Notes under the pieces: model-generated
The model's database searches: none
What the model saw: the letters and a program-made list of their open reading frames with translations, nothing else
What the model was told of the DNA's origin: nothing
Assembly: GCA_016927235.1 (NCBI GenBank)
Contig: JAFGNB010000230.1
Location: forward strand, 1-48,891
Direction of reading: 5' to 3'
DNA: 48,891 nucleotides
Source: Chitinispirillaceae bacterium
GTDB lineage: Bacteria; Fibrobacterota; Chitinivibrionia; Chitinivibrionales; Chitinispirillaceae
Shown: piece by piece, positions 33,031 to 46,612 of the stretch
How the letters are laid out: each line of letters opens with the position of its first letter
Numbering within the stretch: position 1 is the stretch's first letter
Translations under genes and position numbers: made by a program

Positions 33031-34308
33031 ATGCTCGACATGCAGCGGATCAGGGACAATCCCGAATTCATTAAAAAAGCATCAGAAAATAAAAAGAGTC
33101 CTGTCGATATCGACACTATCATCAACCTTGATAACCGGCGGCGCGACACGATCAAGGAGGTTGAGCGCCTTAAAAACCTCCGGAACACCAGGTCACAGGA
33201 GATCGCCGTCCTCAGAAAAGAAAAAAAGGATGCAACCAAGGTGATCGCCGAGATGAAGGAGGTCTCCGACCGCATCAAAGACCTGGACGGGCAGCAGAAG
33301 GAGATCGAGGAGACCCTGCATGAACATCTCATCCGGGTTCCCAATATTGCGCACGAGAGCACCCCTCACGGCGAAAGCGAGAAGGACAATGTCGTGACCG
33401 CTACATGGGAGAAACCGCCGTCATTCGATTTCAAACCCAAGGACCACATCGAACTCGGCATTATACTCGACATCATCGATTTCCCGCGCGGTGCGAAAAT
33501 AGCGGGTGCGGGATTCCCGGTACTTAAGAATGAGGGTGCGCGGCTCGAACGGGCGCTGATCAACTTTTTTCTTGAAACGCATACCCGTCGACACGGTTAC
33601 CGTGAAATCTTTCCGCCGTTTCTGGTGAACCGGGCGAGCCTTTTCGGTACGGGACAGCTTCCTAAAAGTGAAGAACAGATGTATTTCATAGGCGAAGACG
33701 GCCTCTTCTGCATCCCCACCGCCGAGGTGCCGGTAACCAACCTGCACCGCGACGAAATCCTCGACCAGGCACAGCTGCCGATAAAATACTGCGCATACAG
33801 CGCCTGTTTCAGACGTGAGGCGGGGAGCTACGGCAGGGATACAAAGGGGTATCTGCGCGTGCACCAGTTCAACAAGGTCGAACTGGTGAAAATGGTGCTG
33901 CCGTCTACTTCCTATGATGAGCTCGAACTGCTCCGTATCGACGCGGAATTCATCCTCAAGGCGCTCGGACTCCATTACCGCGTCCTTACGCTCTGCGACG
34001 CCGACCTCTCATTCGCGGCGGCAAAATGCTACGACCTCGAGGCATGGGCGCCGGGGGAAGGAAGCTACCTCGAAGTATCTTCCTGCAGTAATTTCGAAGA
34101 TTTTCAGGCACGGCGAATGAACATCCGCTACCGGCCTGCAAACGGCGACAAACCGCGGTTTGTCCATACCCTCAATGGAAGTGGCCTAGCGACGGCACGT
34201 ATCCTTGTGGCGCTTCTCGAAACGTACCAGACGGCGAACGGCACCGTCCACGTACCCGAAGTATTACATCCCTGGATGCAGGGACTTACGGAAATCGGGC
34301 CCCGGTGA
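33031..34308 (+). CDS. serS: Seryl-tRNA synthetase
   Basis: Class II aminoacyl-tRNA synthetase. I start at ATG 33031 (MLDMQRIRDNPE, matching the family N-terminus), behind GAGAGG at 33016-33021; an upstream TTG is unlikely. The coiled-coil tRNA-binding arm spans about 25-105. Motif 2 is in CFRREAGSYGRDTKGYLRVHQF (key FRRE and RVHQF), and motif 3 in NGSGLATARILVALLE. Length 425. First gene of an operon with the histidine kinase, PorX-like regulator and tsaE: its stop overlaps the kinase GTG start in GTGA. Confidence 0.97.
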   Translation: MLDMQRIRDNPEFIKKASENKKSPVDIDTIINLDNRRRDTIKEVERLKNLRNTRSQEIAVLRKEKKDATKVIAEMKEVSDRIKDLDGQQKEIEETLHEHLIRVPNIAHESTPHGESEKDNVVTATWEKPPSFDFKPKDHIELGIILDIIDFPRGAKIAGAGFPVLKNEGARLERALINFFLETHTRRHGYREIFPPFLVNRASLFGTGQLPKSEEQMYFIGEDGLFCIPTAEVPVTNLHRDEILDQAQLPIKYCAYSACFRREAGSYGRDTKGYLRVHQFNKVELVKMVLPSTSYDELELLRIDAEFILKALGLHYRVLTLCDADLSFAAAKCYDLEAWAPGEGSYLEVSSCSNFEDFQARRMNIRYRPANGDKPRFVHTLNGSGLATARILVALLETYQTANGTVHVPEVLHPWMQGLTEIGPR

Positions 34309-35633
34309 AAGCGTGGATCAGAAAAATCATCACCGCACCGCTGCTGTACTTCATCTTCATGAAGATACGTCCTTTTACACGGAAGAATGTTCTTCTCGTT
34401 CTCTGCTCGTTTGCGCTCATCGGTTACAGTATTTTTTCCTTTGCCGTCATCGGCCGCCTGAAGGCCGAAACCACCGGCCTCACGCAGGCGTACGCCGAAC
34501 TGATCCAGACCACGGTTTCGGGAACCATGACCTACGGCGAGATCCGGAGCGTGCTCGGGCGTGTTCTCGACAAGGCAATCAATCCCATCATCGTCACCGA
34601 TACGGTATGGCGTCCGATTCTATGGACCAACATCTACCGGCAACACCGGCTTTTCGGTAAAAGGGAGCGACTTCCCGAAAAACTTGACGGTGTGCAGCAG
34701 GAATACCTTGAACGGAAGATCGTTTCCCTGCGCATGTCCTTCAAACCCCGTCCGATTTACTTCAGCAAAGACGGCGGACGGCTCATGGGATATCTGGTAT
34801 ACGGTAACAGCATGCTTATCCGCAGCCTCTACTTTCTACCGTTTCTGGAAGTCGGCCTGGTCGCCGCGTTTATCATCCTGCTCTACCTCGCCTTCCATAA
34901 CATCCGGGTCACCGAACGCAGCCATCTGTGGGTCGGCCTGGCGAAAGAGACCGCCCATCAGCTGGGAACGCCGATCTCTTCGATCATGGGGTGGGTGGAG
35001 TATCTGCGTACCTTTGTTGACGATGCCGCCGTCGATCAGTCGCGTGAGGTCAGGCAGATCCTCAACGATATGAACAACGACCTGAACCGGCTCTCGAAGA
35101 TCACCGCGCGTTTCAGTCAGATAGGTTCCACCCCGTCAATGGTACCCTGCGATCTCCGTCACCTCCTGACCGACGTCGCTTCGTATTTCACCATGCGCCT
35201 GCCGCTGCTGCGTAAACACATCACCATCGAATACGATTTCAACCGACTGCCGCTCGTCCATGCCAACCGGGACCTCCTTGAATGGGTATTCGAGAACATG
35301 TTGAAAAACGCCATCGATGCCATTACCTCCAATGACGGAAAAATCGGCATCAAAACCGAGCACCTCGCCGTTACCCGTATCGTCCGTATTCAGATAAGCG
35401 ACAATGGACACGGCATCTCATGGGAAACCCATAAAAAGATCTTTTCGCCCGGTTTTACCACCAAGCGGCGCGGATGGGGATTGGGGTTGACTCTGGCTAA
35501 AAGAATCATTGAAGATTACCACAAAGGAAAGATTTATATCGCATGGTCGCAACGGGACAAAGGCACCGTTTTCAACGTCGACCTGCCGGTCAGCAAACAA
35601 GACGCCGGAACGGTCGCATCATCGGAAGCGTGA
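34305..35633 (+). CDS. Membrane sensor histidine kinase (PorY-like candidate)
   Basis: Starts with GTG, overlapping serS by 4 bases. Two membrane helices (about 28-50 and 174-198) bracket a periplasmic sensor of about 120 residues with no domain I recognise. The HisKA domain has phospho-acceptor His218 in AKETAHQLGTPISS. The ATPase has the N box ENMLKNAIDAI (about 330-340), DNGHGIS and RRGWGLGLTLAKRI. The final tail is short. It sits 15 bases before a PorX-like regulator, which makes it the probable partner kinase. In Porphyromonas the PorY kinase regulates type IX secretion genes with PorX; the equivalence here is inference from context. Confidence 0.88.
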   Translation: MKAWIRKIITAPLLYFIFMKIRPFTRKNVLLVLCSFALIGYSIFSFAVIGRLKAETTGLTQAYAELIQTTVSGTMTYGEIRSVLGRVLDKAINPIIVTDTVWRPILWTNIYRQHRLFGKRERLPEKLDGVQQEYLERKIVSLRMSFKPRPIYFSKDGGRLMGYLVYGNSMLIRSLYFLPFLEVGLVAAFIILLYLAFHNIRVTERSHLWVGLAKETAHQLGTPISSIMGWVEYLRTFVDDAAVDQSREVRQILNDMNNDLNRLSKITARFSQIGSTPSMVPCDLRHLLTDVASYFTMRLPLLRKHITIEYDFNRLPLVHANRDLLEWVFENMLKNAIDAITSNDGKIGIKTEHLAVTRIVRIQISDNGHGISWETHKKIFSPGFTTKRRGWGLGLTLAKRIIEDYHKGKIYIAWSQRDKGTVFNVDLPVSKQDAGTVASSEA

Positions 35634-35648
35634 GGAGGTTGTTGCACT

Positions 35649-37229
35649 ATGGCTTCGGGTAGAAAAAGGGTTCTCTGGGCGGATGATGAAATAGAGTATC
35701 TCAGGTCGCATATAATGTTTCTTGAGACGCGCGGCTACAGCGTGGTTCCCGTTTTCTGCGGCGATGACGCCATCGCACTGGTGAGCGAAAAACCCCATTC
35801 GTTCGACATCGTTCTGCTTGACGAGCAGATGCCCGGGAAAAGCGGCCTGACGACACTCGAAATAATCAAGGAGATCAATCCCGATCTCCCGATCGTCATG
35901 GTCACTAAAAGCGAGGAAGAGCAGCTCATGGAGGATGCGCTCGGCAAAAAGATCGACGGGTACCTTACCAAGCCGGTCAACCCGAGCCAGATCCTGATGG
36001 TCTGCAAGAACCTGCTCGATTCCAAGCGGATCGTCTCCAACAGCATCGCCCAGAAATACATCAGGAACTATTCCGAAAACCGCACGCTCCTTGCCGGACA
36101 CCTCTCTTTCCAGCAGTGGATCAAGCTGTATGAGAGTATTACCGCGTGGGACCTCGATCTCGAATCGGTCGATGACGAAGGGCTCCGGCAGACCCATTCA
36201 GGCCACAAAACGGAATGCAACGCACGTTTCGCAAACTTCTATATCGAGAATTACGCCCGCTGGATCCAGGAGAGCAGCCCTGCTCCACTTCTGTCAACCA
36301 AGGTTATTGAAAAGCATCTCTGTCCGCATTTGACTGCCTGTAAACGTACCTACCTGATCGTGCTGAGCGGCATGCGGCTTGATCAATATATCGGTATCGA
36401 GGAGGCGCTTAAAAGGTTTTTCCGTATACAGCGGAGCTATTTTTTCGCCACGCTTCCGACCGACGATTCCTTCGCACGGGCGACACTTTTCAGCGGCATG
36501 GTTCCCGGAAAAATCGCGCAGAGCTACGGATCGCAATGGTCGATCGGCAGTGAGGGCGATTCATTTAAAGTTCATCTGATCGAGGAACGGCTTCTGGCGG
36601 AAAATCTTTCCCGGCTGGGATTCTCCATTCCTCACGACGAACCGTGGTTCACCCGGATCACCGACCGTCTCGAACCCGAACATCTTCAGTCGCGGATTGA
36701 ATCGTGCCGTAAAAGCCGGCTCGTCACCTTCATCGTCAATTTCTTCGACCAGGTTCAGCAGGCTCGCACCACATCGGGAATCATGCAGGAGATCACCAAC
36801 GACGAAAGCGGCATGCGCTCCCTCACCCGTTCGTGGTTCGAACGATCGGCGCTCCTCGCACTGCTGCGGGAAGTGGCAACGCAGGATTGTCGCGTCGTGG
36901 TCATGTCCGATCACGGCAGCGTTCTCTGCAGCAGGGGAACGGAGCTTTACTGCGCGAAAAAATGGGGCGACAATCTCAGGTACAAATTCGGAAGCGGCAT
37001 CTCCTCGGATGAGAGAACGGTCGTTTATCTGCCCGACCCGACCCATTTCGGCCTCCCGCACTTCGGCGATGACATCGCCTGCGTCATTGCACGGGAAAAT
37101 TATTACTTTATTCATCCCGACAAATTCGAGCACTACAACCGGCAGTACCGCAACACCTTCCAGCAGGGCGGCGTCTCCCTGGAAGAAATCATCGTTCCTG
37201 TCGGCGTCTTCACGCCGGGAATTGATTGA
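35649..37229 (+). CDS. porX: PorX-like response regulator with C-terminal PglZ (alkaline phosphatase-fold) domain
   Basis: A 526-residue protein, close to the 518 of Porphyromonas PorX. The receiver domain (1-120) has acidic residues ADDE, phospho-acceptor Asp58 in VLLDEQMPG, Thr86 and Lys108 in YLTKPVNP. A helical linker (120-225) is followed by the PglZ domain (about 230-520), with RLDQYIGIEEAL, FATLPTDDSFARATLFSG (Thr271, the usual nucleophile position), VNFFDQVQQART, SLTRSWFERSALLALL, MSDHGSVLC and RNTFQQGGVSLEE. Two positions that I expect to be metal ligands in this family are changed (see findings). GAGGAGG precedes the ATG. Downstream tsaE linkage is the same as in Bacteroidota porX loci. 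Confidence 0.88.
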   Translation: MASGRKRVLWADDEIEYLRSHIMFLETRGYSVVPVFCGDDAIALVSEKPHSFDIVLLDEQMPGKSGLTTLEIIKEINPDLPIVMVTKSEEEQLMEDALGKKIDGYLTKPVNPSQILMVCKNLLDSKRIVSNSIAQKYIRNYSENRTLLAGHLSFQQWIKLYESITAWDLDLESVDDEGLRQTHSGHKTECNARFANFYIENYARWIQESSPAPLLSTKVIEKHLCPHLTACKRTYLIVLSGMRLDQYIGIEEALKRFFRIQRSYFFATLPTDDSFARATLFSGMVPGKIAQSYGSQWSIGSEGDSFKVHLIEERLLAENLSRLGFSIPHDEPWFTRITDRLEPEHLQSRIESCRKSRLVTFIVNFFDQVQQARTTSGIMQEITNDESGMRSLTRSWFERSALLALLREVATQDCRVVVMSDHGSVLCSRGTELYCAKKWGDNLRYKFGSGISSDERTVVYLPDPTHFGLPHFGDDIACVIARENYYFIHPDKFEHYNRQYRNTFQQGGVSLEEIIVPVGVFTPGID

Positions 37230-37232
37230 CCA

Positions 37233-37667
37233 ATGCTTCTTACCACCACGTCGGTGGAGGCCACACGCGCCTTTGGCGCGAAAGTCGCCTCGAGCGCCCG
37301 GCCGGGAGAGCTTTACGCCCTGGAAGGCGAGCTCGGCACCGGCAAAACCGAGTTCGTCCGCGGTTTCGTTAATGAAATCGATGCGGGCATCGTCGTTCGC
37401 TCGCCGAGTTTTACTATTGTCAATACCTACGACACCGTCCGCTTTCCGGTGTACCACTTCGACTTCTACCGATTGCACGATGCCTCGGAACTCGACGAAA
37501 TCGGATTCGATGAGTACCTCACCGGCGAGGGCGTCTGTCTGATCGAATGGGGGACGCTGTTCCCGTCGGTCCTCCCGCCGCACGCCCGTCTGATCATTTT
37601 CCGCGATACGGGACCCCATGAACGGGAAATCCGGTGCAACTTCGATCTCGCGGGAACAGGCATCTGA
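37233..37667 (+). CDS. tsaE: tRNA threonylcarbamoyladenosine biosynthesis ATPase TsaE
   Basis: ATPase of the t6A37 tRNA modification complex. Walker A is GELGTGKTEF (Lys38, Thr39). The switch segment SPSFTIVNTYD, the HFDFYRL motif and CLIEWGTLFP (Walker-B-like, essential Glu105-Trp106) are all present. Length 144 is typical. It begins 3 bases after the PorX-like stop and converges on the leftward gene at 37702 with 34 bases between, in which I see no clear terminator. Confidence 0.95.
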   Translation: MLLTTTSVEATRAFGAKVASSARPGELYALEGELGTGKTEFVRGFVNEIDAGIVVRSPSFTIVNTYDTVRFPVYHFDFYRLHDASELDEIGFDEYLTGEGVCLIEWGTLFPSVLPPHARLIIFRDTGPHEREIRCNFDLAGTGI

Positions 37668-37701: not shown

Positions 37702-39426
37702 TCACCGGCCGGTCAGTGCGATACGGCGGTTTTCCAGACGGCCGTCCGTATAAGCGATGACGAGGAAGTGAATTCCGGAAGAGAGCTCGGGTGACGCAAG
37801 GGCGTTTCTTATCGACGGCACAACGGCGCACTCCCACACACAGCGCCCCGCAGCATCGACAAGCATTATACGACGCACCCCGGATGATGAACCGGTCCGC
37901 ACACGGATTCTACGGTTCTCGCACTGTATGACCGGTTCGTTGGCTGCAGCTCGATGGCCGTGTACTGGAGCGTTTACGGTAACGGTGGATTGTGAGGAAT
38001 TAATCATTTTTAGCGTATCCCCGTTAACAGCCACCACAAGCGTATCGGTTGAATTCCACGCCCCGCCTGCTGTGAATAAAAACGGCTGCCATCTCCAGAA
38101 TTTGCAGGAGACATCGTACACTCCGCGTTGCGCGTTTGCTTCGAGCGTCACCTCAACGGGAGAAATGACCAGATGTACCAGCGTATCGTTGAAAAACGCT
38201 TTCGTGGTCGAACAAACCGCCGCAGGATCGTGGCGCAGGAGCTTCGAACCGTCGCCGGCTTTATTCAGTGCCGTGGCGACGCTTCCGCTTATCAGGGTTA
38301 CCGACGGAATCTCCCTGTTGTCATCACTATCCATCAGACCGATGGCGACCCTCAGATCACGGTTATAAGTGAATTGATAGGGATCGTCGTTGAGGCATTC
38401 GGCGACCTCCGACGGCGTTATACTGGAAATGGTGGTAACCGAATCGAACAACGTCCTTGCGGAGTAATTCCATGCCTCATCGAGCAGTTCGACCGCCGTG
38501 CCGCCCGCGTTCGCCGTCAGGTTACCGAACCGGTAATCGGTGTTCCCCGACGCGTACGATCTCCATGTACCGCCGCGGTTGATCAGCACCGTTCCGTCAT
38601 CCCCCACGGCGATCCGCCGGTTGATGGATCGCAGCGGCGACGATGCGGAGCTGTTGTCAAGTGTAAACGAGGCTCCCGATCGACGGTAGATCCTGCCTGA
38701 AGCGGTACCGGCGTATCCGCCTCCGACGGCCGACACCGTCTCCGAATCGTCAATAATCATTTCACGTTCGGATTCCCATTGACCGTTATTAACGGGAATC
38801 AGTCGCAGCAGGCCGCCGCTGCCGCCGATCCAGAGTGCGGTATCACGACCTGCTCCGTCGGGTTCGCCCCAGACGCCGCCTATCACCTGCTGTTCCGCAA
38901 GATCGACCGGCAGTGTATCGATCCCCCCGATTGCCCCGGAAGTAGTATGGATATGGAGGCAGTACACCCTGTCACCAGAAGATGCGGCAACCAGATACGC
39001 CGAGTCGCCGTTGGATTCCACGGTAAGCAGATGAAACGGAAGCGACGCCTGCAGGTCAAGCGCCGCAAGAACGGCGATTTCGACCGGGTCCCCGAATTCG
39101 ATCGTCGGTCTGCAGCAGACGCAGTTGTTATCGACTAAAGGGCCCTCCGTCAGCATCAACTTGCCCGCCGCCGTCGCATACACGGCGGTTCCCGGTATTG
39201 CCGCGCGGCTCATCGTGATGCCTGCGGGTTTTTCGGCGCACATAGTCTCGGCCGGGAAAAGGACCGACTGATAGATGGTTGCCAGCCAATTTACATTATT
39301 AAAATACGGATGAAGAAAAACATACCCGTTTTCCTCGAAACCGCACTGCGCATACAGTCCATTAAACCCGCACGCCACAAGGATGAAGCACGCGGTAACC
39401 ACCCGACGCATCATCGGCAACCCCAT
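37702..39426 (-). CDS. Exported protein with type IX-like C-terminal sorting domain, function unknown
   Basis: Start placed at ATG 39426 (574 residues) because it opens a signal peptide (MMRRVVTACFILVACGFNGLYAQ) and leaves 31 bases after the kelch gene; GGAAG precedes it. The mature protein is rich in beta strands, with repeated short motifs such as LWIGGSGGLLRLIPV, VSAVGGGYAGTASGRIYRR and IAVGDDGTVLINRGGTW, which suggest a beta-propeller. Five Cys cluster near residues 95-130 (NNCVCC). The last 75 residues, IRVRTGSSSGVRRIMLVDAAGR to FLVIAYTDGRLENRRIAL, match the layout of a type A sorting domain. Third gene of the TIGR02147-kelch operon. Role unknown. Confidence 0.7.
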   Translation of the reverse strand: MGLPMMRRVVTACFILVACGFNGLYAQCGFEENGYVFLHPYFNNVNWLATIYQSVLFPAETMCAEKPAGITMSRAAIPGTAVYATAAGKLMLTEGPLVDNNCVCCRPTIEFGDPVEIAVLAALDLQASLPFHLLTVESNGDSAYLVAASSGDRVYCLHIHTTSGAIGGIDTLPVDLAEQQVIGGVWGEPDGAGRDTALWIGGSGGLLRLIPVNNGQWESEREMIIDDSETVSAVGGGYAGTASGRIYRRSGASFTLDNSSASSPLRSINRRIAVGDDGTVLINRGGTWRSYASGNTDYRFGNLTANAGGTAVELLDEAWNYSARTLFDSVTTISSITPSEVAECLNDDPYQFTYNRDLRVAIGLMDSDDNREIPSVTLISGSVATALNKAGDGSKLLRHDPAAVCSTTKAFFNDTLVHLVISPVEVTLEANAQRGVYDVSCKFWRWQPFLFTAGGAWNSTDTLVVAVNGDTLKMINSSQSTVTVNAPVHGHRAAANEPVIQCENRRIRVRTGSSSGVRRIMLVDAAGRCVWECAVVPSIRNALASPELSSGIHFLVIAYTDGRLENRRIALTGR

Positions 39427-39457
39427 GACGCTTCCGCCACCGCAATTCACAGGGTTG

Positions 39458-41635
39458 TCACGGGAAATAAACATACACCGCCCTGGTTGATTTTTGCGTC
39501 CCGGCTCCACTTTCACTACCGCCGATAACATATATCCTTCCGTCCAACGTAACCGCCACGCTCCCTTCGCGCGCCGCCGGCATCGGCGTGCCGCTCGAAG
39601 ATGAATCTCCTCCGAGGCAGGAAACCTCTACCGTCGTAACCGGCGCCTCATCAACGGTCGCATTGGTAAGTCCGCCGATAAGGACGAGTTTTTCCCCGGC
39701 AACCGCAGCGCAGAAACCGAACCGTGCGGTCCGGAGATTACGGTCTATCGGCGGGCATGACGATCCGCTCGATACCGGGATACACTCGATGGTGTTGAGA
39801 GGCATCATTTCATCGTCACGCTCATCATAGGTCAGGCCGCCGATGACGAGGATAGTCTGTTCGAATGCAACCGCCTGATGCATCTGGCGCGCAATCCCCA
39901 GATCATCCGACGTCCCCCACTCCTTCCTGCCCGGATCATAGGTGAGAATCGTCTTCACCAACTTCGGATTTCCGCCGGTTCCGGTTACCCCTCCGGTAAT
40001 GTATATAATTCCTTCAGCCGCACATGCCGCCGCACCGACGAGCGGTTGCCGCATCGAATCGACGATTTCCCATTTGTCCGACAAAGGATCATACCGTTCG
40101 ACCGTGGTGTGGTCGATTGTTCCGCTGGTTCCGCCGAACACGTAAATCATACCGTCCACAACCGCATAGGCGGCCTTCAGCCGCGCAACGTTCATCGGAG
40201 CGATTCTGCTCCACGTATGCGATGCCGGATCGTACATTTCGGCGGTTTTGATCCCGGCGAGCGACGCGGTTCCGGTCATGGTCAGTTTTTCCCTGCACCC
40301 GCCGAAAACATACATCTTCCCGCCGACGGCACAGGCGCCCGCATACCGCCGCTCCTCCAGAAGACTGTCGGAGTGCTGCCATGTATCAATCGGCAGAAGC
40401 GACGCCGCATCGATGCTGTCGGTCCACGCCGAATCGGCGTTGTCGATAACCGTCACATAGAGCCGTTTTACCGCAGGCGATATGATCCAGAGAAGCGTAT
40501 CGCTCCCGCACGTATCATTGTCAACCTCTGCAACTTTAACAACCGAATCGGGGTTGTCGGCCCACCAGGTAATTTTATTGACTGAACGTATCCTGCTCGC
40601 AAAACTCATCGCGACATATACCGAGTCGATCGTACCGCCTCCGTCGACCTTTTCCAGCATAATATCCACACGGAGCCATGAGGGGGGAACGGCCAGAAGG
40701 ATATCGATTTCACCGCGAGGGCCCTCGTTGTTGTCGTTATCAAACGCAGCGATCTGGAAGGTAACCGACGCCGCCGAATCATCGTCTATGGAAGAAAAAA
40801 TCCGGATCGTATCGGTCGTATCGGCTACCGTATCAACGGTGTGAACATCACCCACGATGCTGAAAACGAGATACCGCTTTACATCTTCGAGGGGGACGCG
40901 ATTCCAGGCGAGACGCGCACTGCCGGTGAGCGTGTCGTAGACGACCGTCAAACCCGTCGGCGCGATTTCCGGCTTGCCGGCGGGATCGAGCACCAGAAGG
41001 ATGGTGTCGTCAAGAACGGTAATTTCGCCCGGCCTGACCGGGATCTGAGAAATCGACACCGATCGGTAACCGTCGCTGGATATTGTCACCTCGTAGAATG
41101 TATCGGGCGGAATGCGGCTTATGATGAAATCGCCCGTTTCACGATTGACTGTTGCAATAAACGAAGTTCCGTCGACAGAGCAAAAAATGCCCTGCTCCGG
41201 AAAACCGGCCGTCGTGACTACCGTCCCCCGAATCACTCCCAGTTTCTTCATGACCAATATTCCCAGATCGATCCGCCGGGTTGAATCGGGTTGAAACGCC
41301 GTAAGCGGCAGAACGAGCGAATCCGACTCTTGACTTGCGAAAAGAAAATACTCCCCCTCATCAAGCTTTTCAAACTTGAACATGCCGGCATCGTCGGATA
41401 CGACAGCCGCCGCCGTATCGAACCGGGGATTTCCGGCGGAGTCGATGGACGTCACGGCAAGCGCCGCCACCCTCGCTCCCGCCACCGGGAGAGAGTCTTC
41501 CGTCACCAGTTTTCCGACAACTTCGGATCCGCCCAGCGATCCGATCACCTCGGACCCTCCGCATCCCCACATCAACCAGGCCCCGAGCAGTAACGGAGCA
41601 ATCGCTGCAGCACGCAAAGAAGTGGTCGGCGTCAT
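39458..41635 (-). CDS. Kelch-repeat lipoprotein with carboxypeptidase-regulatory-like domains
   Basis: A 725-residue lipoprotein: signal with lipobox MWGC (Cys 25). Two carboxypeptidase-regulatory-like beta domains follow (about 38-125 and 130-215: GKLVTEDSLPVAGARVAAL, then GVIRGTVVTTAGFPEQGIF), then a fibronectin-III-like domain (about 225-320) and, after a linker, six kelch repeats from about 430 to the end, each with the GG pair and IYV/MYV strand (MYVFGGC, IYVFGGTSG, IYITGGVTG, LVIGGLT, LVLIGGL, IYVIGGS). Six blades close a propeller. Its ATG overlaps the stop of the TIGR02147 regulator (ATGA). Ligand unknown; surface display and binding are inferred. Confidence 0.85.
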   Translation of the reverse strand: MTPTTSLRAAAIAPLLLGAWLMWGCGGSEVIGSLGGSEVVGKLVTEDSLPVAGARVAALAVTSIDSAGNPRFDTAAAVVSDDAGMFKFEKLDEGEYFLFASQESDSLVLPLTAFQPDSTRRIDLGILVMKKLGVIRGTVVTTAGFPEQGIFCSVDGTSFIATVNRETGDFIISRIPPDTFYEVTISSDGYRSVSISQIPVRPGEITVLDDTILLVLDPAGKPEIAPTGLTVVYDTLTGSARLAWNRVPLEDVKRYLVFSIVGDVHTVDTVADTTDTIRIFSSIDDDSAASVTFQIAAFDNDNNEGPRGEIDILLAVPPSWLRVDIMLEKVDGGGTIDSVYVAMSFASRIRSVNKITWWADNPDSVVKVAEVDNDTCGSDTLLWIISPAVKRLYVTVIDNADSAWTDSIDAASLLPIDTWQHSDSLLEERRYAGACAVGGKMYVFGGCREKLTMTGTASLAGIKTAEMYDPASHTWSRIAPMNVARLKAAYAVVDGMIYVFGGTSGTIDHTTVERYDPLSDKWEIVDSMRQPLVGAAACAAEGIIYITGGVTGTGGNPKLVKTILTYDPGRKEWGTSDDLGIARQMHQAVAFEQTILVIGGLTYDERDDEMMPLNTIECIPVSSGSSCPPIDRNLRTARFGFCAAVAGEKLVLIGGLTNATVDEAPVTTVEVSCLGGDSSSSGTPMPAAREGSVAVTLDGRIYVIGGSESGAGTQKSTRAVYVYFP

Positions 41636-42456
41636 ACTTTCGTCAGGGGAAACACATGAAAATTGATATGGTAAACCCGGTCCTGTCGTTTCTGGTTTTT
41701 GTCTTCGCGTACGATCTCCAGCAGCTCTCGCCTGAAACTTTTCAGACGCTCCTGTATGGTGGAAAAACCCTCTTCCGACAAGGTAAAAGTGAGCGACGAT
41801 ATGTCCCGTTTTTCACGGGAATAACGGTCGATCGCCTCTTTTGCCAGATCGGCCATTTCAATGAGAAAATTGGTAATCGCCACTGATCTGGCCTCATAGC
41901 CTGTGGTGATGAACGTATCGGTCTGTTCATAAACGCCGTCGACATTTTTCCGGATGAAACCGATTTTTTCAAGCAGCTCCACCGCTTTTTTCGCCTCCGA
42001 CGCCTTAATCGGCGGGGAAACCCGTTTCGCCAGTTCTTCAAAATCCCCCTTAAACGGAGAAATATCGATCAGCTCACGAATCGCCGTATAGTACCACGAG
42101 CTGTAAAATTCATACTGCTGCGCATCGGTTATTTTAATCTTCGATTTTTTATGACGTAAAATCTTCTCGAAATAGAACCGTTTCCGTGAGTGATCCTTTG
42201 CCTGGTCGAAATTTACCAGAAGTTCGAAATACTCGGTTTCGCTCTTTTTAAGTTTAAAAACCTCGGCGAATTTGAAAATATATTCCGGAGAGATATTGCG
42301 CTTGCCGGAAAGAATATTGGTAAAAAATCCGGCCGAACTGAACCCGACCTTCTGGGCGATATAGCGATACGAAAAGAAGGGCTGCTCCGCTTTTCGATCT
42401 TCATAGAGATCCTTAAGGAGTTTGCGGTAATTGAGATACTCAAACGGCTCTATCAT
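41632..42456 (-). CDS. TIGR02147 family protein (DUF4423), HTH regulator-like
   Basis: A 274-residue protein of the TIGR02147 family, best known as a large paralogous family in Fibrobacter succinogenes. The N-terminus FEYLNYRKLLKDLYEDRK is the family opening; an HTH is likely at about 28-65 (YRYIAQKVGFSSAGFFTNIL, then NISPEYIFKFAEVFKL). The C-terminal DUF4423 part has YEFYSSWYYTAIREL, then a winged-helix-like segment at about 145-185 (RVSPPIKASEAKKAVELLEKIGF) and LTFTLSEEGFSTIQERLKSFRREL. Members are presumed transcription regulators, often beside cell-surface genes. Here it is translationally coupled to the kelch lipoprotein, suggesting it controls that operon. Confidence 0.88.
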   Translation of the reverse strand: MIEPFEYLNYRKLLKDLYEDRKAEQPFFSYRYIAQKVGFSSAGFFTNILSGKRNISPEYIFKFAEVFKLKKSETEYFELLVNFDQAKDHSRKRFYFEKILRHKKSKIKITDAQQYEFYSSWYYTAIRELIDISPFKGDFEELAKRVSPPIKASEAKKAVELLEKIGFIRKNVDGVYEQTDTFITTGYEARSVAITNFLIEMADLAKEAIDRYSREKRDISSLTFTLSEEGFSTIQERLKSFRRELLEIVREDKNQKRQDRVYHINFHVFPLTKV

Positions 42457-42544
42457 GACAAAACGCCCCTCTGCTGTTTTCAGGTTTTCGGCATAGTATC
42501 CCTTCTGATTTTAATATACGAAAAAAAGGCCGGGTACAAAAGGG

Positions 42545-42574
42545 ATTATAAGCGAAAAACGTTTTCTGGTGGAA
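42545..42574 (-). promoter_or_regulatory. Promoter of the TIGR02147-kelch operon
   Basis: On the minus strand TTCCAC (42574-42569) and a perfect TATAAT (42550-42545) are 18 bases apart, about 90 bases upstream of the TIGR02147 start. The -35 lies inside one of two palindromes described separately. Confidence 0.5.
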
Positions 42575-42590
42575 AACAAGTGTTTTCACC
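42554..42590. promoter_or_regulatory. Two tandem palindromes, candidate operator
   Basis: GAAAACA (42572-42578) and TGTTTTC (42581-42587) are perfect inverted arms around AG, extended outward by GGT and ACC with one bulged G. Twenty bases to the left, GAAAAACGTTTTC at 42554-42566 is a second, nearly perfect copy of the same GAAAA/TTTTC theme. Centres are about two helical turns apart and they cover the spacer and -35 of the predicted promoter. Confidence 0.5.
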
Positions 42591-43601: not shown

Positions 43602-45485
43602 TCAGACGGCATTCTGAAATTGAAATGCCGGGACTTTCTCAACTGCCCGGAATTTTTCGGGACAGACGGAGATGCATAACCCGCATTTGATGCACAGATC
43701 CTGATCGATGACATGTACCTTATCCGCGGTTTTCGTGATTGCGTTCGCAGGACAGTTTTTCGCGCATAAACCGCACCCTTTGCACTTTTCGGGGTCGATA
43801 TGAAAAGCAATAAGGTTCTTGCAAACGCCGGCCGGGCACCGTTTGTCCTTGACGTGTGCTTCAACTTCCTTTCCGAAGTACTTTAAAACGCTCATGACCG
43901 GATTAACGGAGGATTGGCCGAGGCCGCACAGCGAAGCCACCTTGATGACCGAGCACAGTTCCTCGAGAAGACCGATATCCTCCATGGTGCCCTCACCGCG
44001 GGTAATTCTGTTGAGGATCTTCAGCATCTGCCGCAATCCCTCGCGACAGGGAACGCACTTTCCGCACGACTCGTGAGCGAGAAAATCGATGTAATAGCGG
44101 GCGGTATCAACCATGCAGGTATCTTCATCCATCACGATCATTCCGCCCGACCCCATCATTGAACCGGCTTTGGTCAACTCGTCGAAATCGACCGGAAGGT
44201 CGAGAAGTTTTTCGGGCAGAACGCCTCCGGACGGTCCACCGGTCTGGACTGCCTTGAATTTTTTATTTCCCGGAATTCCCGCCCCGATTTTGAAAATGAT
44301 ATCCCTGATACTCATTCCCATCGGCACTTCCACCAACCCGGTATTGTTGACTTTGCCCACAAGCGAAAAAATCTTCGTCCCCGTACTGCCGGGGGTGCCC
44401 ATACGCTTGAACCATCCGGCGCCTTTAGTGACGATGAAGGGAATGTTCGCCCAGGTTTCGACGTTATTAAGACAGCTGGGCTTGTCCCAGAGTCCCTTAA
44501 CCGATGTGTGAACATACTTGGGACGCGGTTCGCCCACGCGTCCCTCGATGGCATTCATCAGGGCGCTCGACTCGCCGGAAACGAACGCTCCGGCGCCGTG
44601 ATGGACCGATATGTCGAAATCAAATCCGGATCCGAGGATGTCGGTTCCCAGAAAACCGTATTCACGCGCCTGTTCGATTGCGATCCGGGTGTTTTTGCAT
44701 GCAAGCGGGTACTCCCGTCGTACGTAGATGAACCCCTCATTCGCGCCGATCGCATACGCGCCGATGATCAATCCTTCGATAATACCGTGCGGATTGCCTT
44801 CGAGAAGGCTTCGGTCCATATATGCTCCCGGATCACCTTCATCGGCGTTGACAATGGCATATTTCGGCTTGGCGGATGCATTGCGCGTCGTTTCCCATTT
44901 TACCCCCGTGGGAAATCCCCCTCCTCCCCGTCCCCTGAGTCCGGATTCTTTTACGATATCTATGATTTCTTCCGGAGTACTCTCGAATAAGGCCTTCGCC
45001 AGCGCGGCATAACCCCCTACCGCCAGGTAGTCCCATATATTGGTCGGATCGATCAGTACGTTGCCGGCAAGCAGAATGCGTTGTTGATGTTTGTAAAACG
45101 GAATATCATCCACGTATCGGATGCGTTTTCCCGTTTCGGGATCTTCATACAGGAGACGATCAACCAACTCTCCTTTGATGAGAGTTTTCTCCACGATCTC
45201 GGCGACATCCTCCACCGAGGCGCGAAGGTAACAGATTTTTTGAGGAAGGATGACCACGATCGGCCCCCGTTCGCAAAAACCGTGGCAGCCGGTGGGACGC
45301 ACCTCCACCTTATGCGCGAGTTCCTTTTTTTCGATCTCCCGTATGAAGGCGGCGGTAAGTTCCACCGCGCCGCAGGCAAGGCATCCCGTACCGGAACAGA
45401 CGGTTATCATCTGTTTTGCGCCGCGTTTGCTCTGGATCTCATGTCGAAGGGCTTCCAACTCTCCGGGCGATTTTAATTTCGACAT
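43602..45485 (-). CDS. HydB/HndC/NuoF-type NADH-binding flavoprotein with extra ferredoxin domains
   Basis: A 627-residue diaphorase subunit with the layout of Thermotoga HydB (about 626). A thioredoxin-like [2Fe-2S] domain (1-100) has Cys30, 35, 67 and 71. The NuoF core (about 130-555) has the FMN/NADH glycine loop GLRGRGGGGFPTG (182-194), NADEGDPGAYMDR, HHGAGAFVSGESSALMNAIEG (key GAY/GEE-type) and the N3 [4Fe-4S] cysteines 474, 477, 480 and 520. A C-terminal 2[4Fe-4S] ferredoxin uses Cys568, 571, 574, 578 and 598, 601, 604, 608. GAGGAGG precedes the ATG, and it overlaps the upstream gene by 13 bases. Bifurcation cannot be read from sequence. Confidence 0.92.
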   Translation of the reverse strand: MSKLKSPGELEALRHEIQSKRGAKQMITVCSGTGCLACGAVELTAAFIREIEKKELAHKVEVRPTGCHGFCERGPIVVILPQKICYLRASVEDVAEIVEKTLIKGELVDRLLYEDPETGKRIRYVDDIPFYKHQQRILLAGNVLIDPTNIWDYLAVGGYAALAKALFESTPEEIIDIVKESGLRGRGGGGFPTGVKWETTRNASAKPKYAIVNADEGDPGAYMDRSLLEGNPHGIIEGLIIGAYAIGANEGFIYVRREYPLACKNTRIAIEQAREYGFLGTDILGSGFDFDISVHHGAGAFVSGESSALMNAIEGRVGEPRPKYVHTSVKGLWDKPSCLNNVETWANIPFIVTKGAGWFKRMGTPGSTGTKIFSLVGKVNNTGLVEVPMGMSIRDIIFKIGAGIPGNKKFKAVQTGGPSGGVLPEKLLDLPVDFDELTKAGSMMGSGGMIVMDEDTCMVDTARYYIDFLAHESCGKCVPCREGLRQMLKILNRITRGEGTMEDIGLLEELCSVIKVASLCGLGQSSVNPVMSVLKYFGKEVEAHVKDKRCPAGVCKNLIAFHIDPEKCKGCGLCAKNCPANAITKTADKVHVIDQDLCIKCGLCISVCPEKFRAVEKVPAFQFQNAV

Positions 45486-46612
45486 ACGAGTTCCTCCTCA
45501 TTCTGAATGGAAGCGAATAGTTTTTTCATCTGATCGAGCGACGGATTGCTGTAAGGTTTTCCGTCAATTTGCATCACCGGCGCCAGTGCGCAGCAACCGA
45601 GGCAGTGAACGGTTTTAAGCGTGAATATCTGTTGCGTATCCGTTTCACCGGCTTTCAGGCCGAGCAGCGCTGATATTTTCGCAAGCAGATCGGTCCCGCC
45701 CCGTACGTGGCATGCGGTGCCGAGACAGACCTCTATCGTGTGCCTGCCGCGCGGTTCAAGACTGAACGCACCGTAAAAATGAGCGATCGTATTGATTTCG
45801 GCGAGAGAAACGCCCAGCCGCGCCGACAGCCATTTGAGCGTATGGCGGGGCAGCCAGTTCAATCGCGCTTGAATATCCAGGAGAATCTGAATTAATGCGT
45901 TTTTCCTGAAACCGTGCTTCTCGATTATTTCATCGACCACCTTCAATTGATTGATTATGTCAAGAATGGCCTTTTCCCTCTTCTTCACCTGACCGAGGCT
46001 TTCGGCATGGTATTTCGCCTCCGACTCGAGATATCTGAGTTCATTAAGCACATCCTGTCGTTCCAGCCCGGCTTCATAGCCGTGCATGAGCATGGCGAGA
46101 CCCTCGAGAAGCACTTCATGTTTGTCAACTTTTTGCGGCATCGGTTGCTTCGGCGCCGCCATGGTTTCCTTTGCGGTCGAAGCCGGTGTTTTTCGGATTT
46201 CACTGAGCTTGATTCCCCGTTGTACCGTTTCCAGAAGCCGTTCGGGATCGAAAGGTTTCGTGAGAAAGTCAAAAGCGCCGATTTTCATCGATTCCACGGC
46301 GGTATCGATGGTGCCGTGACCGGTGATGACCACGATGACTATGGAAGAATCGATCTGAGGTATTTTGGCCATGACTTCCAATCCGGGAATCCCGGGCATC
46401 TTCAGATCGACAAGCGCAACATGCGGCCTGGTATGCCGCACCAATCTCAATCCATCGTTTCCGTTTCGGGCGACAGCGGCGCGAAATCCACCGGCCTCAA
46501 GCGTCTGCCTGCAGCCTTCACACATCGAATCGTCATCATCAATAACAACGACATCCGCATGTTGAGGGTTGGAACCGAACAGTGTCGCTTCCTCGTTATT
46601 GTTCAGGTACAT
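45473..46612 (-). CDS. Receiver domain fused to NuoE/HydC/HoxE-type [2Fe-2S] subunit
   Basis: An unusual 379-residue fusion. Residues about 18-135 are a complete CheY-like receiver: VVVIDDDDSM, phospho-acceptor Asp69 in VALVDLKMPG, Thr97, and Lys119 in DFLTKPFDPE, most like NtrC-family receivers. A charged, helical linker (about 140-215) follows. Residues about 216-375 are a full NuoE domain: LLDIQARLNWLPRHTLKWLS, AEINTIAHFYGAFSLEPRGRHT and [2Fe-2S] ligands Cys296, Cys301, Cys337 and Cys341 (CLGTAC and CLGCC). AAGGAGG lies just before the ATG. First gene of the operon, behind a sigma54 promoter. Phosphorylation by the nearby kinase, tuning diaphorase activity or docking, is inference. Confidence 0.9.
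   Translation of the reverse strand: MYLNNNEEATLFGSNPQHADVVVIDDDDSMCEGCRQTLEAGGFRAAVARNGNDGLRLVRHTRPHVALVDLKMPGIPGLEVMAKIPQIDSSIVIVVITGHGTIDTAVESMKIGAFDFLTKPFDPERLLETVQRGIKLSEIRKTPASTAKETMAAPKQPMPQKVDKHEVLLEGLAMLMHGYEAGLERQDVLNELRYLESEAKYHAESLGQVKKREKAILDIINQLKVVDEIIEKHGFRKNALIQILLDIQARLNWLPRHTLKWLSARLGVSLAEINTIAHFYGAFSLEPRGRHTIEVCLGTACHVRGGTDLLAKISALLGLKAGETDTQQIFTLKTVHCLGCCALAPVMQIDGKPYSNPSLDQMKKLFASIQNEEELVCRN

Follow-up and report, generated by a model that had tools for sequence, protein, structure and literature searches.

The window analysed here is a 48,891-nucleotide stretch (contig JAFGNB010000230.1) of a Chitinispirillaceae genome (Fibrobacterota; a 4.15-Mb assembly), and it carries a minus-strand operon encoding a TIGR02147/DUF4423 regulator, a kelch lipoprotein and a protein that looks secreted, in this order. 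The regulator is one of dozens of paralogues, and it is probably a class I activator that switches on its own operon and a regulon of secreted proteins. It would bind, presumably as a dimer, the dyad GTTTTC-N5-GAAAAC, whose centre lies some 62 bp before the transcription start, and from this class I position it would help RNA polymerase to transcribe its own operon, with the lipoprotein made from the regulator's own message. Other genes with the same site would also be activated, mostly those of secreted proteins, some with sorting-like tails. Binding of a protein to the candidate dyad is highly likely, a regulon of secreted proteins is rather likely, and activation of transcription is favoured with somewhat less assurance. 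The sequence evidence carries the operon, the conservation of the operator, the promoter geometry, the association of sites with genes and the covariation of residues with bases.

The operon and its candidate operator

The regulator gene (41632..42456, minus strand) encodes an N-terminal helix-turn-helix (HTH) and a C-terminal DUF4423 part. Its assignment to TIGR02147 in the original prediction is upheld by a score of 301.3 bits, far over the cut-off of 50, and DUF4423 was matched with 129.8 bits (cut-off 30). The closest named matches are in Chitinispirillaceae metagenome-assembled genomes (Fibrobacterota), 89 and 87% identical. As had been described, the stop of the regulator and the start of the lipoprotein gene (39458..41635, minus strand) overlap in ATGA at 41632-41635, and the third gene (37702..39426, minus strand) follows 31 bases past the lipoprotein stop, with its ATG at 39426. 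The kelch gene scored 149 bits with Kelch_1 in four stretches (cut-off 20.1) and 46.9 bits with CarboxypepD_reg, found in two stretches. The kelch half of the name "kelch lipoprotein" is thus well founded, and the lipoprotein half was judged by eye, from a protein start (MTPTTSLRAAAIAPLLLGAWLMWGC) which is lipobox-like with a box deviating from consensus. The third gene is an open reading frame (ORF) of 574 amino acids for which a later ATG was chosen. It had no Pfam match (to E 0.01) and no match with the sorting domains TIGR04183 and PF18962 (Pfam to E 0.01, NCBIfam to E 0.1), so its "sorting tail", as the original prediction called it, is a resemblance seen by eye which the models did not bear out. 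The order of the three genes was kept in 9/9 orthologous loci across the order (L291-L299), with identities of 23-50% for the kelch gene and 25-70% for the third gene.

Two palindromes were reported upstream of the regulator, and both are present, GAAAACAAGTGTTTTC at 42572..42587 and GAAAAACGTTTTC at 42554..42566, with centres 19.5 bp apart. They do not cover the promoter as was claimed, since the -10 shared with orthologues and the -35 position lie downstream of both. The first, GAAAACA-N2-TGTTTTC, had been offered as the operator. Its exact 16-mer pattern is unexpected by chance in the window (0/100 shuffles), but its outer, upstream arm is missing in ten other aligned orthologue upstreams, which rules it out as the operator. 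A candidate operator does exist upstream, but the site had been mis-parsed, and for this reason the proposed search with GAAAACA-N2-TGTTTTC would fail in orthologues. The conserved element is GTTTTC-N5-GAAAAC, which consists of the facing halves of both palindromes and straddles them, taking just the GTTTTC half of the second. In the window it lies at 42561..42577 and reads GTTTTC-CACCA-GAAAAC on the minus strand (GTTTTC-TGGTG-GAAAAC on the plus strand). It is the single match in the window when up to one mismatch is allowed, with 0.15 expected by chance.

This dyad was found in 10/10 upstreams of the window gene and nine orthologues sharing 56% identity or more; L061 has one mismatch, and for orthologue L066 the dyad was checked in locus L297. 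The information content over 11 upstreams was 1.89/2.00 bits in the half-sites, 0.48 in the spacer and 0.32/0.43 in the flanks, where the half-site values come partly by construction because the upstreams were picked for dyad presence. A protein gripping two half-sites would be expected to leave this trace, with the half-sites kept and the spacer free; binding and dimerisation are inferred.

The dyad frame in the family and its place before predicted promoters

In Fibrobacterota the little-studied TIGR02147 regulators are greatly expanded: 90/100 genomes of the phylum had matches, many of them at least 22, and six searched genomes held 17 to 59 each. The own genome of the window has 32 such genes (33 matches, one gene split). 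One TIGR02147 gene of this genome, at G000:C169:3399-4218, lies in two overlapping frames, which is either a broken gene or an assembly error. Sequence behind the gene was available for 31 own-genome genes. In 28 of these the next ORF starts -22 to +7 bases from the stop, with a 4-base overlap in 15 of the pairs, and nearly all of these ORFs have a signal or lipoprotein-like start by eye. A strict lipobox expression matched 101/171 downstream ORFs. The link that had been drawn between the family and surface propeller proteins therefore holds for lipoproteins, more broadly than claimed (28/31), and the kelch partner is specific to the orthologous group of the window.

We assembled 173 non-redundant TIGR02147 genes of the order, 171 of them with at least 100 bases upstream. 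A perfect dyad of the form GTTxyz...z'y'x'AAC with a gap of 4-6 was present in 41/171 upstreams, compared with 1.03 in dinucleotide shuffles (maximum 4 in 30). When all 64 outer triplets were compared at gaps 3-6, GTT was at the top and GTA came next (8 vs 0.50 expected). At gaps 7-10 TGT was best (20 vs 0.63 expected); presumably these are outward extensions of the same sites (TGTTTTC...). Other genes in the same loci had such a dyad in only 6/322 cases (p 6e-15 against the TIGR02147 upstreams), and by sequence four of the six are the own dyad of a neighbouring TIGR02147 gene and one is a GTTTTC site. The inner bases vary between paralogues and are kept inside orthologue groups. One operator sequence for the whole family is ruled out, because the common part is the outer frame only. 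Scanning the 32 upstreams of the own genome for palindromes of any kind gave 8/32 at p<0.05, which was too weak by itself, and this approach was set aside.

Some results tell against a general role of this frame. A perfect GTT dyad was lacking in 130/171 upstreams of the order and was found in 0/18 upstreams of the Fibrobacter family. The best palindrome of any kind in the 220-bp upstream of the window is unremarkable by itself (p 0.197, 60 shuffles), and this would suit an explanation in which no protein binds and the palindromes arose by chance or form RNA hairpins. We consider that explanation hardly credible: the dyads are enriched over shuffles and over other genes, their spacer is variable and their flanks unrelated, and most of them lie upstream of the predicted promoter and so outside the transcript.

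In the Fibrobacter-family loci (L309-L338) TIGR02147 genes again precede lipoprotein-like ORFs, and their upstreams show apparent direct repeats (GTGTTCnC or GTGTrGAC).

The position of the dyads relative to the promoter was studied with 48 perfect dyads (40 GTT and 8 GTA), taking the best-scoring -35/-10 pair downstream of each; the starts are thus predicted, not mapped. The distance from dyad end to -35 was 16-20 bp in 28/48 (26 of them at 17-19 bp), against 8.1% of random positions (binomial 1e-18). In 8/48 it was 27-29 bp, one helical turn further, and the other 12 were scattered. Most dyad centres thereby fall at about -62 or -72 from the predicted start. Class I activators such as CRP occupy about the same positions, near -61.5 or -71.5. 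The geometry points to class I activation from about -62 more than to an operator lying over the promoter.

In the window the predicted -10 is TATATT (42513..42518, minus strand), the same hexamer as in orthologues L060-L065. The predicted -35 position, TTTTGT (42536..42541, minus strand), has a 17-bp spacer and is 19 bp from the dyad; it was set by analogy with L062-L065, where TTGAAT, TTGATC, TTGATA and TTGAAA each have a 17-bp spacer and dyads 17-19 bp away. The automated choice was TTTGTA, with a 16-bp spacer and 20 bp from the dyad. In L007, L026, L001 and L135 the predicted -10 ends 6-7 bases before the ATG, and the messages would be leaderless.

The same dyad could also serve a repressor, which would autoregulate and silence the regulon until a signal comes, from a promoter overlapping the dyad. 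The own -35 of the window is weak, and a better TATAAT lies nearer the dyad in the window and in L060; both observations count against activation, and the TATAAT, just past the dyad, would place the dyad over its -35 region. In addition, many HTH proteins of the lambda type are repressors, and the nearest folds listed for the regulator include the P22 c2 repressor. The more distant orthologues L062-L065, however, are without that TATAAT and keep TTGA..-17-TATATT at 17-19 bp, and the perfect dyads lie 17-19 bp (26/48) or 27-29 bp (8/48) upstream of the -35, not over it. So we regard repression as unlikely and infer activation.

The predicted regulon and the bases probably read by the regulators

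The dyad of the window is not confined to the operon. GTTTTC-N5-GAAAAC occurs 8, 9, 31 and 14 times in genomes G000-G003. In the three genomes of the same genus (8, 9 and 31 sites) the reversed pattern occurs 0, 0 and 1 times, and over ten genomes there were 125 sites against 5 for the reversed pattern. The sites of two other paralogues were scarce in three genomes (GTTGCA-N6, 1, 0 and 2; GTTGTC-N4, 2, 3 and 2). By these two, a regulon as large as that of the window is not the rule.

The regulon was sampled at 60 loci holding 62 of the 125 sites, and 39/60 loci had a target with a signal-like start. Targets were ORFs starting 30-280 bp downstream of a site, and the background was ORFs from the same loci. 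With a home-made signal score, at the third of four thresholds, 43/61 ORFs behind sites had a signal-like start, against 46/161 in the background (p 1.8e-8). All four thresholds favoured the targets (46, 44, 43 and 32 of 61 vs 66, 59, 46 and 39 of 161). Among the eight sites of the own genome, five were found by script to precede a signal-like ORF, one is that of the operon, one (L236) precedes such an ORF by eye and was left out of the target count, and the eighth is inside a coding ORF (L231). The L231 and L240 sites, both within one conserved coding ORF (MoxR-like by eye), look like chance. Where promoters at signal-like targets were scored, 19/24 had a spacing of 17-19 or 27-29 bp to the dyad. 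Pfam matches on ten target proteins include two VIT/VWA proteins, a PQQ-type propeller and a SASA-type esterase.

Several VIT/VWA observations were also made around the orthologous operons: a VIT/VWA-like protein (..GALYARRP..) adjoins the operon in L294, L296, L297 and L298, the GTTTTC dyad precedes the VIT/VWA-like gene in L297, and relatives are targets in L237 and L261.

We also considered sorting of the targets. A G-x-Y tail was found in 19/51 targets and 11/125 background proteins. Among signal-bearing proteins the difference shrank to 15/37 vs 5/33 (p 0.03), a weak enrichment, which counts against the main reading. Of eight target proteins compared with TIGR04183 in NCBIfam, three scored 17.3, 18.2 and 18.7 bits, short of the cut-off of 23, and the other five were unmatched. 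SprA was over its cut-off in 7/7 genomes. Matches to TIGR04183 at E 0.01 numbered 83-142 in five genomes, at a level where 3/14 control genomes also score. With so many matches per genome, the dyads would account for no more than a part of any cargo.

Cross-talk between paralogues is possible in L249 (G003), where GTTTTC-N5-GAAAAC lies 139 bp ahead of the start of a different TIGR02147 gene and a lipoprotein-like ORF flanks the site on its opposite side.

To relate operators to proteins, dyads were called from DNA alone and then set against protein residues. The first sample had 72 dyads with up to one mismatch, of which 67 remained after limiting the gap to 4-6 and the position to -160 to -50. 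For 51 later genes the gap rule was applied with no position filter, and identity thinning was then done on first and later genes pooled. The strongest correlation of half-site distance was that with residues 38-52 (Mantel r 0.285, p 0.0005; 38 representatives below 60% identity). For base 4 of the half-site, columns 41 and 47 ranked first and second, and for base 6 column 53 ranked first. In the pooled perfect dyads (n=32), K/R at 47 went with G4 in 8/8 (0/24 otherwise), K/R at 53 with C6 in 22/24 (0/8 otherwise) and D/E at 47 with C4 in 5/5 (6/27 otherwise). After thinning below 42% identity (n=17), the K/R47 and K/R53 rules held (p 0.0002 and 0.002), and the D/E47 rule failed (p 0.11). An AlphaFold2 model of the regulator, confident over residues 10-100 only (pLDDT 74-93) and poor in the C-terminal half, places residue 47 inside the third HTH helix (43-49) and residue 53 immediately after it.

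The 51 new genes, which supplied 8 perfect and 11 single-mismatch dyads, also served as a held-out set. Base 6 was as predicted in 8/8 perfect dyads and 16/19 overall, where all proteins carry R or K and hence give no negative test. For base 4, the counts over all 19 dyads were 4/4 for D/E, 3/5 for N/Q and 1/2 for K/R. Three results weaken the case for such reading: base 4 was as predicted in just 2/3 perfect held-out dyads; the top columns for base 3 and for the gap are mainly outside the HTH; and residues 100-274, the C-terminal part, also correlate with the half-sites (Mantel r 0.204). Because segments beyond the HTH correlate too, relatedness contributes to the covariation. A residue-base code which is real but incomplete is what these comparisons suggest, and the inner bases would be read partly through residues 47 and 53.

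The code bears on another explanation, in which the dyad belongs to a different regulator of envelope genes and TIGR02147 genes are merely among its targets. The dyad of the window does precede many genes besides its regulator. But the inner bases are particular to each orthologue group and covary with HTH residues of the adjacent gene, and the sites of the two other paralogues are nearly private (0-3 per genome). We hold this explanation to be very improbable.

A self-activating regulator of secreted proteins would then be one member of an expanded paralogous set, whose members usually stand directly before a lipoprotein gene, many with an operator of the same frame and other inner bases. Any sensing would be carried by the DUF4423 half, which is winged-helix-like in the weak part of the model. 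Co-regulation may set the amount of the lipoprotein, or the surface protein may report back. We speculate, with about even confidence, that Chitinispirillum-type Fibrobacterota have a cell-surface switchboard of dozens of paralogous, largely orthogonal one-protein activators. Many of these would be matched, through the residue-to-base code, with near-private operators of class I, and their genes would stand directly before those of their own surface lipoproteins. The member in the window would have expanded its role to activate a regulon of secreted proteins.

Neighbouring genes, meaning and known systems

Convergent to the operon, at 34305-37667 on the plus strand, are genes for a histidine kinase, a PorX-like REC+PglZ protein and a TsaE-like protein. 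This set is at the same place in L291 and L292 of the same genus and did not turn up in the remaining seven orthologous loci. A link to PorX drawn from gene neighbourhood was dropped, because the PorX-like neighbour was seen only within the genus. Further away (45473-46612, minus strand), a response-regulator receiver is fused to a 2Fe-2S thioredoxin-like (NuoE-type) domain, and a NuoF-like gene adjoins.

The analysis yields exact candidate operators, a predicted polarity, a predicted secreted-protein regulon and a code open to single-residue swaps. It has implications for the way in which fibre- and chitin-degrading bacteria select their surface proteins, and the paralogues may supply orthogonal regulator-operator pairs. 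TIGR02147 is named nowhere in the literature collection searched, and the portions covered, around Fibrobacter, regulators of the type IX secretion system and related names, held no TIGR02147 target; DUF4423 appeared there in one paper, in a table row for Bdellovibrio Bd3700.

By both cut-offs the regulator of the window is a member of TIGR02147 (Fsuc_second, a "paralog" model of NCBIfam) and DUF4423. These models state no operator, polarity or targets; the dyad frame, the promoter spacing, the residue-base relation and one regulon are proposed here. In a Foldseek search the regulator model had no match at E 0.001 or better. Its N-terminal part resembles the P22 c2 repressor (Z 8.5, rmsd 2.3 over 67) and C.AhdI, a restriction-modification controller (TM 0.72 by target over 65 columns, Foldseek E 0.28). 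The likeness to lambda-type (Xre-like) HTH proteins is one of fold only, with 9-23% sequence identity and a different DUF4423 part, and Z 8.5 is a level common for helical models. Class I activators such as CRP are alike in having the dyad at about -62/-72, here from predicted starts, upstream of the -35 and on the same helix face. CRP differs by fold, the regulator being a predicted lambda-type HTH with DUF4423, for which activation is a prediction. With PorX/PorY-SigP of Porphyromonas the common ground is surface export, with a PorX-like gene near the operon and SprA present. In the portion of that literature covered, PorXY-SigP is described as controlling genes of the type IX secretion machinery; there the machinery genes are controlled, whereas here the sites precede the secreted proteins themselves.

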